In this document: positions 20,226 through 28,861 of the stretch, piece after piece
Position numbering within the stretch: position 1 is the first letter of the stretch
Layout: each line of letters opens with the position of its first letter
Origin: Halorubrum sp. 48-1-W
GTDB lineage: Archaea; Halobacteriota; Halobacteria; Halobacteriales; Haloferacaceae
Length of the DNA stretch: 55,515 nt
Assembly: GCF_003287355.1 (NCBI RefSeq)
Contig: NZ_QMIM01000005.1
Span: 1 to 55,515, forward strand
Direction of reading: 5' to 3'
Notes under the pieces: generated by a model
The model's database searches: none
What the model was told of the DNA's origin: nothing
The model's input: the letters and a program-made list of their open reading frames with translations, nothing else
Program-made: the position numbers and the translations under genes

Positions 20226-21074
20226 TCAGACGAATCGCGCCAACGCCTCGTACGCCTCCCGTGCCGCGTGGTCCGGCCGTTGTGGGTACGTGTACAGCTC
20301 CATGGTGACGAACCCGTCGTACTCGATATCGTCGAACGCATCGAACATCGGAGCGAACGAGAGATCCCCTTCGCCGGGGACGAGGTGGTAGTGTTTCCCG
20401 CGTATCCCGCCGGCGATGTCCTCGAGATGGACGCCGGTGATGACGCCCGCACACCGGTGAATCGCGTCGACGGGGTCGTCGCCGTACACCGCCACGTGGC
20501 CGAGGTCGAGGTTGACACCGAGTCCGTCCCGGCCCACGTCGTCGAGCAACGTCAGCGTCTCTTCGACGTTCTCGACGAGCAGTTCGGGTTCGAACTCGAT
20601 GCCGACCTCGATCCCCCGCGGTTCCGCGTAGTCGAGGATCTCGTGGAGAGAGTCGACGAAGTACTCGTACGCCTCCTCGGGACGCGTACCGGGGAGGGCG
20701 GTCCCCGAAGCGACGCAGACGGCCGGGGCGCCGACCAGGTCGGCGAGATCGATCGCCCGCTTCGTGTACTCGATCCGCCACCGGCGGTCGTCCCCGTCGG
20801 CCGTCGAGAGGCTCGGTTCGAAGAAGGCCGACGGCGGGGCGTCGTCGTAGAAGCCCGTCGCGGTGTTGGCGTTGACGTTCGACACCGCGAGACCGGTCCC
20901 TTCGAGAGCCTCGCGGACCGCGTTCCGGTCCGCAGTCCCGAACCTCGGGAAATAGGCGTGGGGGTCGTCACCGAGCAGTTCGACTCCGGCGTAGCCGTGG
21001 TCGGCGATGCGCCCGATCGCTTCGGGGAGGTCGTACTCCGTGTACGCGTTCGTGGAGAATGCGAGTCGTGTCAT
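20226..21074 (-). CDS. Sugar-phosphate isomerase/epimerase-like TIM barrel (EboE-like, copy 1)
   Basis: 282 residues of the xylose-isomerase-like TIM-barrel family. The metal-binding acids and histidines are visible in order: IEFEPELLVEN (Glu), NLDLGHVAVYG (Asp, His), GVHLEDIAGG (His, Glu) and GFVTMELYTYP (Glu). It is the last gene of a four-gene operon running from 23671 and follows the UbiA-type gene after 6 bases. A second barrel (22039-22881) lies on the other side of UbiA and shares the STNA start and ELY-YP end. In ebo clusters EboE is such a barrel. The substrate is unknown. Confidence 0.82.
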   Translation of the reverse strand: MTRLAFSTNAYTEYDLPEAIGRIADHGYAGVELLGDDPHAYFPRFGTADRNAVREALEGTGLAVSNVNANTATGFYDDAPPSAFFEPSLSTADGDDRRWRIEYTKRAIDLADLVGAPAVCVASGTALPGTRPEEAYEYFVDSLHEILDYAEPRGIEVGIEFEPELLVENVEETLTLLDDVGRDGLGVNLDLGHVAVYGDDPVDAIHRCAGVITGVHLEDIAGGIRGKHYHLVPGEGDLSFAPMFDAFDDIEYDGFVTMELYTYPQRPDHAAREAYEALARFV

Positions 21075-21080
21075 GGTGGA

Positions 21081-22034
21081 TCAGCTGACGTCGAACCGCT
21101 TCGAGAGGACCGTCGCGGGGACGAGAAACGACAGCGCCGTGAGCGCCCACCCGACGCCGGCGGCCGCCGCCGCACTCCCGACGAGAATCGATTCGCCCAC
21201 GACGCAGGTCCCGACCGCGGGAACGACGGCCTCGGGTACCGGGTCGGCGTACGCTCGACGGAGTGTCCGCCCGTTGCGGACGAGGAACACGCCGAGCGCG
21301 AGGAGGCCCACGACGATCGCGAGCGCCGACGGGCGGGCAGTGAAGAGCGTGCCGGCGACGACGACCGCAGCGAGCAGCGACGCCGCGCCTACGGTGAGAA
21401 TGCGTCGACGGGAGCCGCCCGTCCCCTCGTCGTCGGCCATCGCCGTGACGGCCGCGATGTAGCCGAAAACCGCCGCCGGGACGGCGACGAGTCCCACCGT
21501 CGTGTCGATCCCGGGGCCGTCCAGCGCGGCACGGATCTCCCCGCCTCCAACGCTGGCACCCAGGAGAACGTTGAGCCCGCGGGCCGTACCCATCGCGAGG
21601 AACCCGGCCGAAGTCCCCTTCAACAGGGCGTCGTAGCCCACGACGACGATCGACAGGAGGCCCGCAACCGCGACGGACACCGGGCCGACGGTCGCAGCGA
21701 GCACGACCCCGCCGCCGAGCGCCGTGAGTCCCACGCCGAGTGCGGCCCGTCGGGGAACGATCCCGGAGGGGATGGGGCGCTCGGGGCGCGTCTCCGCGTC
21801 GCCGGCGGCGTCGGCCCAGTCGTTCAGCGACGTCCCGCCGGCGTACAACAGCATCGACGCGACCGCGAGAACCGCAACGTCCCTGGGGCGGACGGCACGA
21901 CCGGCGATCCCGGCGGTGATCGCGAGCGCGGCCCCGGCGACGACGTCCGGCGGCGCGGTGAACAGGTTCGGCACGCGGACGAGCGCCGCGTACCCCGTGA
22001 ACCGGTCGCGGACCGTCGGGGACGTCGTCGCCAT
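21081..22034 (-). CDS. UbiA-family prenyltransferase (EboC-like)
   Basis: 317 residues with about nine membrane spans. The first aspartate motif is clear in GGTSLNDWADAAGDAETRP (N-D-x-x-D-x-x-x-D, about residue 70), the Mg-diphosphate site of UbiA enzymes; the second motif is weaker (around MADDEG). UbiA proteins join a prenyl chain to an acceptor in the membrane. Being flanked by TIM-barrel isomerases, a TatD-type hydrolase and a divergent inositol-phosphate synthase operon, it resembles EboC rather than quinone or geranylgeranylglyceryl enzymes. The start MATTSP at 22034 was chosen because upstream codons overlap the preceding gene. Confidence 0.85.
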   Translation of the reverse strand: MATTSPTVRDRFTGYAALVRVPNLFTAPPDVVAGAALAITAGIAGRAVRPRDVAVLAVASMLLYAGGTSLNDWADAAGDAETRPERPIPSGIVPRRAALGVGLTALGGGVVLAATVGPVSVAVAGLLSIVVVGYDALLKGTSAGFLAMGTARGLNVLLGASVGGGEIRAALDGPGIDTTVGLVAVPAAVFGYIAAVTAMADDEGTGGSRRRILTVGAASLLAAVVVAGTLFTARPSALAIVVGLLALGVFLVRNGRTLRRAYADPVPEAVVPAVGTCVVGESILVGSAAAAAGVGWALTALSFLVPATVLSKRFDVS

Positions 22035-22038
22035 CGCC

Positions 22039-22881
22039 TCACGCCCACCCGTGGTCGCGGAGGTAGTCCATCGCGTCCCGAGCGGTCTCCGCGGCGGTCT
22101 CTTGGTACGGGTACAGTTCGACGGTGACGTACCCGTCGTAGTCGGTGGCCGCGACCGCGGTGAGGAACGCGTCGATGTCCATCGCCCCGTCGCCGAGCGC
22201 GGTGTGCTCGTGTCGCCGGTCCGCCGGGATATCCTCCAGGTGGTAGTGCTGGGTGTACGGGGCGAGCCGCTCGACCTGTGCTGGGGGCTCTTCGCCGACA
22301 CAGAAGAGGTGGCCCGCGTCGAAGTTACAGCCGACGACGTCCGTGTCTACCCGGTCGGCGAACGAGAGGAACTGATCGGTCGTCTCGATCAGGAGATCCG
22401 GCTCCGGTTCGACGAGGAGGTCGACGCCCGTCTCCCGGGCGATCGGCGTCAGCTCCTCGATAGCGGCGACGAACCGGTCCATCGCCCACTCGCGGGACTT
22501 CCCGTCCGGGACGGGTCCGCCCGGCTCAACGGAGACGTACGGCTGGTCGAGCGCCGCGGCGACCCGGAGGGCGTCGGCGGTGTAGTCGATCCGTCGCTGT
22601 CGGTACTCGTCGTCGGGTTCGACGTACGACGGGTGGTGAAACCCCTCGATAGCTGTCAGCATGAACGCGTTACAGTTGCTGATCGCGACGTTCGCACCCG
22701 CGAGCGCCGCCCGCACGGCGTCGAGGTCCGCGTCGGTCGCCGTCGTCGGATAGAGGTGCGGCTCGTCCAACAGCAGTTCGACACCGTCGTATCCCGCGTC
22801 CCCGATCGTCTCGATGGCCTCGTCCAGCGCGTACTCTCGGAAGGCGTTCGTCGAGAAGCCGAGTCGTAGCTCAGAGCTCAT
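22039..22881 (-). CDS. Sugar-phosphate isomerase/epimerase-like TIM barrel (EboE-like, copy 2)
   Basis: 280 residues. The xylose-isomerase-like barrel has its metal ligands: LLVEPEPDLLIE, CNFDAGHLFCVGEE, QHYHLEDIPADRRHEH and GYVTVELYPYQ. It is a diverged paralogue of the 20226-21074 product, sharing STNAF and EYALDEAIE at the start and YDGY-V-ELY near the end. It overlaps the TatD-type gene by 11 bases and ends 4 bases before UbiA, so the operon is tightly coupled. The two barrels may act at different steps, or as a heteromer. Confidence 0.82.
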   Translation of the reverse strand: MSSELRLGFSTNAFREYALDEAIETIGDAGYDGVELLLDEPHLYPTTATDADLDAVRAALAGANVAISNCNAFMLTAIEGFHHPSYVEPDDEYRQRRIDYTADALRVAAALDQPYVSVEPGGPVPDGKSREWAMDRFVAAIEELTPIARETGVDLLVEPEPDLLIETTDQFLSFADRVDTDVVGCNFDAGHLFCVGEEPPAQVERLAPYTQHYHLEDIPADRRHEHTALGDGAMDIDAFLTAVAATDYDGYVTVELYPYQETAAETARDAMDYLRDHGWA

Positions 22882-23671
22882 ACTCGAAGTTCGGCGACCG
22901 GCTGAAGAACTCGTGCGGATTCTCGAGGACGACCTTCCGAACCTCGTCGCGGCTCCAGCCCCGGTCGAGCATCTCGTCGCGGGCCTTCGGGACCGCGAGC
23001 GGGTCCGAGGGGTCCCAGTCCGCGGCGCTGTTGAACAGCATCCGGTCGGTGCCGTACTCCTCCAAGAGGTCGATCGCCGCGTCGGCTTCGATCTTCCCCG
23101 GGTAGAGCGTGAACCCGATCCAGCAGTCGGTCTGCAGACTCGTCTCGATCGTCTCCGCGGTGTTGTGGTCGATGACGATGCGCTCTTGGGTAACGCCTTC
23201 CTCCTCGATGACGTCGACGATACGCTCGGTCCCCGACGGCTTGTTCTCGTGAGGTGTGTGGACGATGACGGGGAGTTCCCGCTCTTCGGCCATCCGGAGC
23301 TGGCGGCGGAACGCCCGGTCTTCCGCCTCGGTCTGCTGGTCGTAGCCGATCTCGCCGACGCCGACGACGTTCTCGCGGTCCAGATACGCCGGGAGACGCT
23401 CGAGTACCGTCTCAGCCATCGCTTCGTAGTTCGCCTCTTTCGGCTCGAGCCCGATCGTAACGTAGTGGTCCATCCCCGCCGACCGCTCGGCCCGCTCGGT
23501 CTCGAAGTCGATGATGTGCTCGAAGTAGTCGAAGAACGACCCGGCGTGTTGCTTGTCGGTCCCGCTCCAGAAGGCCGGTTCGATGCAGCACTCGATGCCC
23601 GCCCGCCGCGCTCGGTCGTAGTCGTCCGCCGAGCGCGACACCATGTGCATGTGTGGGTCGATTATCCGCAT
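22871..23671 (-). CDS. TatD-like metal-dependent hydrolase (EboB-like)
   Basis: 266 residues, amidohydrolase-type barrel. Metal ligands are present: IIDPHMHM (H-x-H at residues 6-8), VGVGEIGYD (Glu), VIVHTPHE (His), IVIDHNT (His) and LFNSAADWD (Asp). Classical TatD proteins are nucleases, but this divergent branch, with EYGTDRMLFNSAADW, is like the EboB hydrolases. It is the first gene of the operon; ATG 23671 lies about 27 bases after a TATA box, so the upstream in-frame TTG at 23683 is less likely. Context with UbiA, two isomerases and inositol-phosphate synthase suggests action on a small metabolite and not DNA. Confidence 0.8.
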   Translation of the reverse strand: MRIIDPHMHMVSRSADDYDRARRAGIECCIEPAFWSGTDKQHAGSFFDYFEHIIDFETERAERSAGMDHYVTIGLEPKEANYEAMAETVLERLPAYLDRENVVGVGEIGYDQQTEAEDRAFRRQLRMAEERELPVIVHTPHENKPSGTERIVDVIEEEGVTQERIVIDHNTAETIETSLQTDCWIGFTLYPGKIEADAAIDLLEEYGTDRMLFNSAADWDPSDPLAVPKARDEMLDRGWSRDEVRKVVLENPHEFFSRSPNFEYEL

Positions 23672-23693
23672 GAGACGGTTCAATCAGCCAACC

Positions 23694-23703
23694 GTATTAA
23701 TTA
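23694..23703 (-). promoter_or_regulatory. TATA box of the ebo-like operon
   Basis: On the minus strand this reads GGTAATTAATAC, centred about 27 bases before ATG 23671. That fits a leaderless transcript for the TatD-UbiA-isomerase operon. Confidence 0.6.
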
Positions 23704-23914
23704 CCGTCCGACTAAACGGCGGATCCCCCGTCTCATGCGGCGATATCGGATGTTAAGGAGTCATATAACTGGGACGGCGGCCGGCGGGATGCGCGTTAGC
23801 CGGATCATTCCTTAGCCGACGAACTCGGAAGTACCTCGAGATGACACACGGGATTCACGACGGCGCCGGGGGGATCCCCCTCCGGCGGTCGCCAGGGCCG
23901 ACACGGAGGCGACG

Positions 23915-25180
23915 ATGACGCTTGGCGTCTGGCTGATCGGGGCGCGCGGGAACGTCGCGACGACGGCGATGGTCGGCGCCAGAGCCATCGATCACGGCGT
24001 GACCGACACGACGGGCCTGGTGACCGCCCGGGAACCCTGTGCCCGTCTCGACTTGCCCGGCGTCGAGGAGTTCGTTTTCGGCGGACACGACGTTCGAACC
24101 GAGCCCCTCCGGGAACGGGCGGCCGCCCTCTCGACGGACGGCGTCCCGCCGGCGTCCGTGGTCGACGCCGTCGCCGAGGACCTCGACCACATCGACGATC
24201 GGATCAGGACCGGGACTGCGGTGAACTGTGGCCGCGCGCTCGAGTTGGCCGGCGACGACCTCCTGGAGGACGAGCACTCGCTCCGTGGCGTCGTCGAACG
24301 GATCCAGGCCGACCTGACCGACTTCGAGCGGAGCCACGACCTCGGTCGCGTCGTCGTGATCAACGTGGCCTCGAGCGAACCGATGCCCGCTACCCCCGAC
24401 CGGTACGACACGCGAGCGGCGTTCGAGGCGGCGCTCGACGACGACGACGACGAGATTCCCGCCAGTTCGCTGTACGCCTACGCGGCGCTGTCCGACGGCC
24501 GGCCGTTCGTCAACTTCACGCCCAACACGGGGAGCGCACTCGGCGGCCTCGAGGAGCTCGCCGAGGCCCGGGGCGTCCCGCACATGGGTCGAGACGGGAA
24601 AACCGGGGAGACGCTACTGAAGTCCGCGCTGGCCCCGATGTTCGCCGGTCGAAACCTCCACGTCATGTCCTGGGAGGGTCACAACATCCTCGGTAACGAC
24701 GACGGCTTAGTGCTCGAAGACGAGGAAAACCAGGCCGGCAAACTGGCGAGCAAGGGCGGCGTCCTGGACGGGCTACTCCCCGATCTCGAACACAACCGGG
24801 TGCGCATCGACTACACCCCGTCGCTCGGCGACTGGAAGACCGCGTGGGACCACGTCCACTTCCAGGGCTTCCTCGGCACCGAGATGAAACTCCAGTTGAC
24901 GTGGGAGGGGAGCGACTCGGCGCTGGCGGCACCGCTCGTCCTCGACCTGGCTCGACTCGCCGCCTACGCCGACGAACGGGGCGAGGGCGGGCTCCAACCA
25001 CACCTCGCTTCCTTTTTCAAGTCGCCGATGGGCGTCGACGAACACGACCTCTCCAAGCAGTTCGTCACGCTCGAGGCGTACGTCGAAGCACACGCGGGCG
25101 ACGGGCCGACGTCGGTCGGCGAGCGGGACCGGACCGCCGACACGGCGGGAGCCGGCACCAAGCCGGAGGCGGACGAGTGA
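23915..25180 (+). CDS. ino1: myo-Inositol-1-phosphate synthase
   Basis: 421 residues. An N-terminal Rossmann motif (LIGARGNVATTAMVGARA) and the family core are clear: NFTPNTGSALGGLEELAE, GRDGKTGETLLKSALAPMF, NLHVMSWEGHNILGNDDG and LSLGDWKTAWDHVHF-like KTAWDHVHFQGFLGTEMK with the catalytic lysines. It converts glucose-6-phosphate to inositol-1-phosphate with NAD. The gene is divergent from the ebo-like operon and overlaps the phosphodiesterase-type gene by 4 bases. In archaea inositol phosphate feeds archaetidylinositol or soluble cyclitols; here it takes the place of EboD, the sugar-phosphate cyclase of ebo clusters. Position-based function is inferred. Confidence 0.92.
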   Translation: MTLGVWLIGARGNVATTAMVGARAIDHGVTDTTGLVTAREPCARLDLPGVEEFVFGGHDVRTEPLRERAAALSTDGVPPASVVDAVAEDLDHIDDRIRTGTAVNCGRALELAGDDLLEDEHSLRGVVERIQADLTDFERSHDLGRVVVINVASSEPMPATPDRYDTRAAFEAALDDDDDEIPASSLYAYAALSDGRPFVNFTPNTGSALGGLEELAEARGVPHMGRDGKTGETLLKSALAPMFAGRNLHVMSWEGHNILGNDDGLVLEDEENQAGKLASKGGVLDGLLPDLEHNRVRIDYTPSLGDWKTAWDHVHFQGFLGTEMKLQLTWEGSDSALAAPLVLDLARLAAYADERGEGGLQPHLASFFKSPMGVDEHDLSKQFVTLEAYVEAHAGDGPTSVGERDRTADTAGAGTKPEADE

Positions 25181-26532
25181 CGACCGACGCCGACCGCGTG
25201 CTCGTCTTCGACGTCGTCGGTCTCCAGCCTCGCCACGTCACGGTCGACGCGATGCCCGCGCTGGCCGACCTGCTCGACGACGTCGTGGCGACCCGCCCCG
25301 CGTTCCCGGCGCTGACGGTGCCGGCCCAATCGACGCTCGCGAGCGGGACGGACCCGACGACCCACGGCGACGTGGCGAGCGGACGGTACGACCGCGCGAC
25401 CGACACGGTCGAGTTCTGGGGACGGGACCGTGCCGACCGGCAACGCCTCTGGGAGACGGCCCGCGAGGACGGGGCGACGACCGGGGCGCTGTTCTTCCAG
25501 CACCTGATCGGGACCGACGCCGACGTCGCCGTGACGCCCTCGCCCGTCGAGGACGCGGACAACGAGCTCATCGCGATGAACTGCTGGACGAACCCGGACG
25601 GCTTCTACGACGACCTCCGTGACGAGTTGGGTCACTTCCCGCTGCACAACTACTGGGGACCGGCGGCCAGCGTGGAGGCGACTCGCTGGATCCTCGAGGC
25701 CGCGGAGCGGGCCGTCGACCGCGTCGATCCGGACCTGCTTTGGGTGTACGTCCCCCACCTCGACTACACCGGCCTGGCGGAGGGTCCCGGCGACGCGTTC
25801 GAGGCGGAGCTCCCGGTAGTCGATGACCTGCTGGGCGAGTTCATCGAGGCCCGCCGGGCGGACGACCGGTGGGACGGGACGGCCGTGGCCGTCGTGAGCG
25901 AGTACGGGTTCAACGCCGTCGACACGCCGGTGTTTCCCAACCGCGCCCTGCGCGATGCGGGACTGCTCTCGGTGGCTGACGACGGCGAGGGTGGCGAGGA
26001 CGTCGACCTCGACGCCTCCGCGGCGTTCGCGGTGGTCGACCACCAGATCGCGCACGTCTACGTCGATCCGGAGGCTCGAACGGCCGCCCACGAGGTGCTC
26101 GCCGGGCTTCCCGCCGTCGACGCCCTGCTCACACCCGGTGACTGTGACCTCGCTGCCCACCCGAACGCGGGCGAGTTCGTCCTCGTTGCTGCCCAGGACG
26201 CCTGGTTCCAGTACTACTGGTGGGACGACCGCGACGACGCCCCGTTTTACGCCACCAGCGTCGACATTCACCGGAAGCCGGGATTCGACCCCTGTGAACT
26301 GTTCATCGGCGACGAGGGGATGGCCTCGCTCGATCCGACGGCGGTCGGCGGCTCCCACGGTCGCGTCGACCCGAAGACGTTCCCCCTGTTCGGCGTCGGA
26401 GGGCCCGCCGCGCCGACGCTTCCCGAGGGCCCGATCGACGCCCGTTCGGTTTCGCCCACCCTCGCGGACCTGCTCGGGGTCACGACCGACGCCCTTTCGC
26501 ACGCCGAGGACGCCTCGGTGCTTTCCCGGTGA
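25177..26532 (+). CDS. Nucleotide pyrophosphatase/alkaline-phosphatase-superfamily hydrolase (EboF-like)
   Basis: 451 residues from GTG 25177, which overlaps the inositol-phosphate-synthase stop by 4 bases. The type-I phosphodiesterase fold is shown by VLVFDVVGLQ (first metal Asp), the Thr nucleophile region FPALTVPAQSTLASG, and VPHLDYTGLAEGP, VDHQIAHVY and GGSHGRVDP. The usual S-D-H-G metal motif reads VSEYGFN, so the second metal site is altered. There is no signal peptide, so it is cytoplasmic. With inositol-phosphate synthase it is probably the second enzyme of a two-gene operon, removing or rearranging a phosphoester. In ebo clusters EboF has this fold. Confidence 0.82.
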   Translation: MTTDADRVLVFDVVGLQPRHVTVDAMPALADLLDDVVATRPAFPALTVPAQSTLASGTDPTTHGDVASGRYDRATDTVEFWGRDRADRQRLWETAREDGATTGALFFQHLIGTDADVAVTPSPVEDADNELIAMNCWTNPDGFYDDLRDELGHFPLHNYWGPAASVEATRWILEAAERAVDRVDPDLLWVYVPHLDYTGLAEGPGDAFEAELPVVDDLLGEFIEARRADDRWDGTAVAVVSEYGFNAVDTPVFPNRALRDAGLLSVADDGEGGEDVDLDASAAFAVVDHQIAHVYVDPEARTAAHEVLAGLPAVDALLTPGDCDLAAHPNAGEFVLVAAQDAWFQYYWWDDRDDAPFYATSVDIHRKPGFDPCELFIGDEGMASLDPTAVGGSHGRVDPKTFPLFGVGGPAAPTLPEGPIDARSVSPTLADLLGVTTDALSHAEDASVLSR

Positions 26533-28144: not shown

Positions 28145-28427
28145 AAACGAACCACAGATCGTACACGTCTCTCAGAAGGGACAGGCCACGATCCCGAAAG
28201 GATTACGCGAGAAGTTCGGGATCGAGACGCCGGGTGAGGTGTTCGTCTACGAGGAGGGTGGACGCATCGTCATCGAGCCGGTGCCGTCGCCCGAGGAGCT
28301 ACACGGGATCCACGCCGGGACACACGAACCCGGCGAGGTGCTGGAGCGCGTCCGTGAGGCGAGAGACGAGGAGAAACGCCGGGAAGACGAACGGGCCGAT
28401 CGGCTCAGTCCGTCCGAGGACGCATGA
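28128..28427 (+). CDS. AbrB/SpoVT-type antitoxin (VapB-like)
   Basis: 99 residues. The AbrB hairpin is at residues 10-52: VHVSQKGQATIPKGLREKFGI, then PGEVFVYEEGGRIVIEPVP. The acidic/basic helical tail (VREARDEEKRREDER) is probably the toxin-binding part. A perfect inverted repeat spans the start codon. It is coupled to the PIN gene by a 4-base ATGA overlap. It is not closely similar to the 5484-5747 antitoxin outside the core, so the two pairs are separate modules. Confidence 0.88.
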   Translation: MTSSSTNEPQIVHVSQKGQATIPKGLREKFGIETPGEVFVYEEGGRIVIEPVPSPEELHGIHAGTHEPGEVLERVREARDEEKRREDERADRLSPSEDA

Positions 28428-28861
28428 GCGGTGGATACGTCTTCGACACCGAGGCGATCGTCGCCTTCCTCTACAGCGAACTCGCCCACGAAACCGTCGC
28501 AGCGCTTCTCGACGAGGTCTTCGCCGGGGAATCGGCTGGCGTCCTCTCCCGAACGAACGCCGCCGAAGTGTTCTACCTCGTCGCGCGGTTCGAAGGCGTC
28601 GATGGCGCTCCGACGAACGCCTCACTACGGGATGCCGACCGGGACCTCCGGGCGCTCGAACGACGGGGGGTGGGCATCGAATCGGCCGACTGGCGACTGG
28701 CGGCCGAAGTGAAAGCCGACGGGGGCGTCTCCCTCGCCGACGCGTACGCCGTCGCGCTCGCACACGAACGCGACGCGACGCTCGTCGCGGGGGCCGACGA
28801 CGACTTCGAGGAACTCCCTGTCGAGATCGATCTGTTCCGGTTCCGAGACGAGGGGGTGTGA
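28424..28861 (+). CDS. PIN-domain toxin (VapC-like)
   Basis: 145 residues. PIN acidic residues are complete: YVFDTEAIVAFLY (Asp8), RTNAAEVFYLVAR (Glu), VSLADAYAVALA (Asp) and LVAGADDDFEEL (Asp). Expected to be a metal-dependent RNase held inactive by the AbrB-type protein encoded upstream, with which it overlaps by 4 bases. A short GC-rich hairpin follows the stop. Confidence 0.87.
   Translation: MSGGYVFDTEAIVAFLYSELAHETVAALLDEVFAGESAGVLSRTNAAEVFYLVARFEGVDGAPTNASLRDADRDLRALERRGVGIESADWRLAAEVKADGGVSLADAYAVALAHERDATLVAGADDDFEELPVEIDLFRFRDEGV

Follow-up and report, generated by a model that had tools for sequence, protein, structure and literature searches.

The ebo operon, with genes for EboA to EboF, was described from Bacteroidota, Cyanobacteria and eustigmatophyte plastids (Yurchenko 2016; PMC5133447). 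Later papers that name ebo deal mostly with scytonemin, for which the ebo genes export a precursor that is oxidised outside the cytoplasm; a chemical description of the ebo product was not found for any organism in the literature we examined. We analysed a 55,515-nucleotide stretch of Halorubrum sp. 48-1-W (contig NZ_QMIM01000005.1, positions 1 to 55,515 of the forward strand; hereafter the window), in which six genes at 20226-26532 encode two TIM-barrel proteins (TIM1 and TIM2), a UbiA-type prenyltransferase, a TatD-type hydrolase, a myo-inositol-1-phosphate synthase (MIPS) and a phosphodiesterase-fold protein (PDE). Like the described operon, this set has relatives of EboB, EboC and EboF clustered together; unlike it, the archaeal set has no EboA, EboD or EboE, and MIPS stands in place of EboD. 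The haloarchaeal six-gene set very probably belongs to the ebo superfamily because of the tree and residues of UbiA, the NCBIfam scores, the EboF signature of PDE and the similarity of TatD to EboB. The reading we prefer, at about even odds, is a dedicated biosynthetic module: a variant, found in haloarchaea and without EboA, of the MIPS-type ebo clusters, which would make a prenyl-cyclitol and aid export.

All six open reading frames (ORFs) are intact, and Pfam agrees with the families that an earlier reading of the sequence alone (the original prediction) had given them. The minus-strand genes run in the order TatD-TIM2-UbiA-TIM1 and the plus-strand genes in the order MIPS-PDE. Neighbouring genes are either 4-6 bp apart or overlapping (TatD/TIM2 by 11 bp, MIPS/PDE by 4 bp), which argues for two divergent operons. 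These share a 243-bp intergenic region (23672-23914), the expected site of both promoters.

Chance does not account for this grouping: of the 292 Halobacteria genomes sampled, 37, from 16 genera, have the set, for the most part with the gene order kept. The search with the UbiA protein gave a bimodal result: the 37 genomes had a close relative (42-57% identity, E 1e-27 or better), and the remaining matching genomes had a weak match only (about E 1e-4 to 1e-14), the level that an enzyme of the DGGGP-synthase type would give. The source genome holds both kinds, the ebo-type gene and a separate DGGGP-synthase-like gene. In the neighbourhoods retrieved, TatD-TIM2-UbiA-TIM1 was nearly constant and MIPS-PDE usually diverged from it; the gene set was mostly syntenic among the 37 carriers, and a TIM1 orthologue (61-72% identity) was present in most loci. 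Two genomes (G249 and G255) have both operons but separated, and in a third (G208) the operons lie at contig ends. Across all 292 genomes, PF01658 detected MIPS in 39: in all 37 UbiA-positive ones and in 2 of the 255 UbiA-negative ones (Fisher p ~7e-45, uncorrected for kinship, with a distribution that is patchy over the 16 genera). Because of this association, and because synteny or paired presence holds even when the operons are separated, we treat the two operons as a single module; the divergent operons that the original prediction had joined do occur together in other genomes. Of the two UbiA-negative genomes with MIPS, one has a distant MIPS type (L079), and in the other (L080) an ebo-type MIPS stands alone. 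Halobaculum salinum, Natronococcus sp. CG52, Halocatena salina and Haladaptatus pallidirubidus all carry the cluster on large plasmids; in Haladaptatus pallidirubidus, MIPS is not annotated next to the other cluster genes. As a separate observation, G208 has the TatD-TIM2-UbiA-TIM1 operon twice, in diverged copies on contigs C1 and C26 (L045 and L035).

The predicted absence of EboA and EboD was borne out. In the 37 cluster-bearing genomes the search for EboA (NF035938) gave nothing above the cut-off (best E 0.07), and EboD gave partial matches only (E 1e-5 or worse). The MIPS found in its place (23915-25180, plus strand) is a 421-residue, Archaeoglobus-type enzyme (PF07994 and PF01658) that matches the A. 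fulgidus enzyme 1u1i with a phmmer E value of 7e-90. Residues D227, K229, K276, K280, K308 and K369 are invariant, of which we take D227, K276, K280, K308 and K369 to be the catalytic positions of A. fulgidus MIPS. In the MIPS tree, the haloarchaeal, actinobacterial ebo and Deltaproteobacterial sequences, the last from a metagenome-assembled genome (MAG), form one clade (support 97/97), and the remaining archaeal and bacterial MIPS, that of Gemmatirosa among them, fall outside it. We rejected the idea that MIPS is a lipid gene of haloarchaea in general, as it is absent from 253 of the 292 Halobacteria.

We asked whether MIPS might feed inositol phosphate to ordinary inositol-headgroup lipids (archaetidylinositol), with the other genes acting as bystanders or in lipid tailoring. 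MIPS is common elsewhere in the same archaeal phylum, and a myo-inositol headgroup occurs in some haloarchaeal polar lipids, a route in which HVO_B0213, the MIPS gene of Haloferax volcanii, has been placed (PMC8305020); a PF01658 control agrees with an MIPS gene in this species. However, MIPS in Halobacteria occurs almost only alongside UbiA, TatD, TIM and PDE genes and stays paired with PDE, the haloarchaeal enzyme falls in the bacterial ebo clade and not with other archaeal enzymes, and the conserved set contains no CDP-alcohol phosphatidyltransferase. We therefore regard the archaetidylinositol route as unlikely.

The UbiA gene (21081-22034, minus strand) encodes a 317-residue intramembrane prenyltransferase of the EboC/SCO3242 family, as assigned by NF035940, tree and motifs. 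Its NCBIfam scores were 164 bits for EboC (NF035940), 157 for SCO3242 and 65 for the DGGGP type; the EboC score lies under the NCBIfam cut-off of 250 bits, as expected of a divergent branch. Quinone UbiA enzymes were compared through NCBIfam scores only. A control with the EboC model at E 1e-20 also matched in methanogens, so that such a match does not tell EboC from DGGGP synthase. The haloarchaeal proteins form a single clade (95/99) and, together with the actinobacterial and EboD-type proteins, lie on one side of a 100/100 branch with DGGGP synthase on the other, although the tree does not resolve the deep branching order of these three groups. In keeping with the original prediction, UbiA thus falls with EboC and not with the archaeal lipid enzyme. 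DGGGP synthase resembles the cluster UbiA in its UbiA fold and NDxxDxxxD motif, and the first Asp motif of UbiA is intact, but DGGGP synthase differs in its separate clade and in lacking M148, R152 and E203, which mark the ebo family together with a nearly constant T197. Where DGGGP synthase has KDVEDxxGDREE, the ebo-family proteins have a short T-x5-E stretch. The AlphaFold model of UbiA (pLDDT 93.8) aligned with DGGGP synthase 6m31 (VIA Z 23.1, root-mean-square deviation (rmsd) 4.7, 266 residues aligned) and with ApUbiA 4od5 (VIA Z 22.7, rmsd 2.8, 253 aligned). Assignment of UbiA as a DGGGP synthase was ruled out by the tree, the residues and the separate DGGGP-synthase-like gene in the genome.

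UbiA might instead prenylate an aromatic or other non-cyclitol acceptor, with inositol as a separate headgroup or solute and the cluster making a mixed secondary metabolite. According to one report, the flavobacterial EboC homologue Ubi-297 preferentially farnesylates aromatic acceptors in vitro (PMC9235831), and the difference in the second motif from DGGGP synthase fits such a role. On the other hand, the haloarchaeal conserved set has no aromatic-biosynthesis gene, and in most ebo loci UbiA occurs together with EboD or MIPS, both of which form cyclitols. We consider an aromatic acceptor quite improbable.

Active-site residues are intact in TatD and the TIM barrels, as they are in MIPS. TatD (22871-23671, minus strand), which opens the minus-strand operon, is a 266-residue, EboB-related metal-dependent hydrolase (PF01026) with 45-47% identity to bacterial EboB and invariant metal-site residues (H7, H9, E107, H138, H169 and D218). 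Relatives of TatD elsewhere in the archaeal phylum have about 27-36% identity, which is below the bacterial EboB proteins and makes bacterial ancestry through transfer likely. PDE (25177-26532, plus strand, GTG start) is a 451-residue protein with the type I phosphodiesterase fold of the EboF family (PF01663), has 35-42% identity to bacterial EboF proteins and carries the EboF signature (SEYG / DHQ-AH / IH-KPG-DP-ELF / GSHG). TIM1 (20226-21074, minus strand, 282 residues) and TIM2 (22039-22881, minus strand, 280 residues) are paralogues with about 40% identity, both matching PF01261 (AP_endonuc_2). TIM1 is a xylose-isomerase-like TIM barrel with the D-tagatose/ketose 3-epimerase fold, and its AlphaFold model (pLDDT 92) aligned with the D-tagatose 3-epimerase-like structure 3wqo (VIA Z 32.2, rmsd 1.7, 255 aligned). 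Residues E160/E162, D190, H193, H228, H230 and E259 of TIM1 are invariant. The original prediction had assigned the UbiA, PDE, TatD and TIM-barrel proteins to ebo families; the first three indeed proved to be relatives of EboC, EboF and EboB, whereas the TIM barrels share only a superfamily with EboE. Their identity as EboE was rejected, as they scored 22-33 bits against the 250-bit cut-off of NF035939 and the EboE clade contains neither; TIM2 falls in a clade of its own. The best NCBIfam matches of both are IolO-like, and this, with their ketose-3-epimerase fold and the position of some loci on plasmids next to sugar-catabolism genes, would suit a cluster for sugar or inositol breakdown or interconversion in which IolO/IolE-related barrels process inositol and UbiA is incidental, but that is very improbable: the conserved genes include none for an inositol dehydrogenase, an IolD-like hydrolase or a transporter, MIPS works in the biosynthetic direction, and UbiA is present as consistently as MIPS.

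The exchange of EboD for MIPS, which the original prediction implied to be peculiar to archaea, proved to be the usual arrangement in Actinobacteria and to occur in a few other bacteria. We compared 80 loci with an ebo-like TatD from GTDB genomes, out of hundreds of ebo loci there. The cyclase was EboD in 44, MIPS in 16 and neither in 20, some of which are cut by contig ends. Among the 19 actinobacterial loci, MIPS was present in 15 and EboD in none, and the MIPS-type loci keep EboA and EboE. On Streptomyces plasmids the annotated order is inositol-3-phosphate synthase, SCO3242 prenyltransferase, sugar phosphate isomerase (SPI), EboA, TatD, EboE and phosphodiesterase. Plasmid 2 of Gemmatirosa kalamazoonensis, a member of the Gemmatimonadota, has an unannotated MIPS-type cluster (L167, 76446-87624) of EboE(-), TatD, PDE, UbiA, MIPS and SPI, in which EboA was not detected. 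The actinobacterial MIPS-type ebo clusters resemble the archaeal set in their same-clade MIPS, EboC-family UbiA, TIM-barrel isomerase, TatD, EboF-family PDE and lack of EboD; the archaeal set differs in lacking EboA and EboE and in having two paralogous TIM barrels, split divergent operons and a TatD on another branch.

The sixteenth MIPS locus, in Deltaproteobacterial MAG JACREV010000085 (L087), is arranged MIPS-TIM-TatD-UbiA. It is sister to the haloarchaea in the TatD tree (SH-aLRT 84) and the MIPS tree (91/77), its TatD is 53% identical to the archaeal protein and its TIM barrel 45% identical to TIM1, and EboA and EboE were likewise not found in it. Unlike the archaeal set, it has a single TIM barrel and no PDE and lies on one strand, with a GSDH-like protein encoded upstream. 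In the TatD tree, made by a quick method, EboA-bearing clusters are separated (100 SH-aLRT) from a group that holds the haloarchaea, this MAG and four further sequences without EboA; this grouping is tentative because of long branches. Since one MIPS clade holds the haloarchaeal, MAG and actinobacterial enzymes, the exchange looks shared between haloarchaea and bacteria on this limited sampling, as opposed to an independent archaeal recruitment. An archaeal invention was ruled out by the actinobacterial loci and the common clade.

Other bacterial loci showed further arrangements. Two Streptomyces ebo clusters (L124 and L148) have neither MIPS nor EboD detectable beside UbiA, and in L124 an exported lectin/pectate-lyase-like ORF, read by eye, lies upstream of UbiA. 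HisF-like genes were read from the sequence upstream of EboB-type TatD in L160 (3893-6776) and L088 (8131-10825), with a HisH-like gene also in L160. An ebo-type UbiA follows TatD in L160, and HisF-like proteins may be a third type of partner to TatD and UbiA. Plasmids of Hymenobacter (L168) and Roseomonas (L169) carry another bacterial MIPS group beside Gfo/Idh/MocA oxidoreductases and YcaO-like proteins, with no ebo genes.

Sugar-dehydrogenase beta-propeller proteins with a GSDH domain, several of them with Tat signals or cupredoxin domains, and multicopper oxidases recur near the haloarchaeal cluster. Exported cupredoxin-domain GSDH proteins or multicopper oxidases adjoin it in L031, L036-L038, L040, L045, L046, L051, L058 and L062-L066. 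By coordinates, 17 of the 37 genomes have a PF07995 match no more than about 10 kb from UbiA, where 0.86 was expected (about 20-fold); counted by genus, the figure is 10 of 16, where 0.82 was expected (P ~4e-11). Such P values are optimistic, because the 10-kb limit was set after the loci were seen and because GSDH genes cluster on sugar-rich plasmids. A multicopper oxidase was read from coordinates within 10 kb of the cluster in 7 genomes, and on one Streptomyces plasmid a ScyD/ScyE-family gene precedes MIPS. The enrichment of exported oxidoreductases beside the cluster favours an export-linked role, which we rate as somewhat less likely than not. A PIN-domain-like ORF, its domain read by eye, lies at window positions 28424-28861 (plus strand), and a 65% identical gene is found near the cluster in L057.

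How the six proteins might act together can be outlined. By analogy with the A. fulgidus enzyme, MIPS would convert glucose-6-phosphate to inositol-1-phosphate, and TIM1 and TIM2 may isomerise or epimerise a cyclitol or sugar precursor. UbiA would then add a prenyl chain, in haloarchaea most probably geranylgeranyl, onto an inositol hydroxyl, much as DGGGP synthase O-prenylates a polyol phosphate; the nearest solved folds are those of DGGGP synthase and ApUbiA. PDE and TatD might trim phosphate or ester groups, leaving a prenyl-cyclitol anchored in the membrane. From Nostoc and the neighbouring genes, this lipid may help a metabolite cross the membrane to exported oxidoreductases. That the product is a prenylated inositol-derived molecule seems to us as probable as not, and the function suggested in the original prediction, a prenylated cyclitol or export, stays plausible. 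A wider proposal is more speculative and less likely than not: that Haloarchaea and Actinobacteria make a type of membrane molecule not yet described, a prenyl (geranylgeranyl) ether of inositol or epi-inositol, as a carrier or anchor for metabolites bound for extracytoplasmic oxidases, and that ebo is a general cyclitol-lipid system in which EboD and MIPS are interchangeable.

Several points weigh against a prenyl-cyclitol that serves export. UbiA and DGGGP synthase, which O-prenylates, do not share the second motif, so that acceptor and donor are guesses, and the preference of Ubi-297 is for aromatic acceptors. Scytonemin export in Nostoc needs EboA and EboE, both missing from the archaeal set, and the conserved set contains no transporter. 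Neither GSDH nor multicopper oxidase had a match within the window, their matches in this genome being on contigs C65 and C30, and the neighbour enrichment could come from shared residence on sugar-metabolism plasmid regions. Biochemistry or lipidomics of any MIPS-type cluster was not found in the open-access literature.

The word inositol is not used in Yurchenko 2016 (PMC5133447) and Klicki 2018, and their accessible text describes no archaeal ebo cluster. No paper on prenylated inositol lipids, or on ebo with inositol or archaea, was found in the open-access literature. The archaeal cluster and an explicit MIPS type thus appear undescribed there, although annotation pipelines have already named the parts.

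These results add archaea to the bacteria and plastids in which ebo was known, and they caution against a simple reading of haloarchaeal MIPS as a membrane-lipid headgroup gene. If MIPS can replace EboD, the shared currency of ebo clusters would be a cyclitol, which here is predictable (inositol) and open to labelling. Haloarchaea can be manipulated genetically, and one of them, Haloferax volcanii, carries an MIPS gene.

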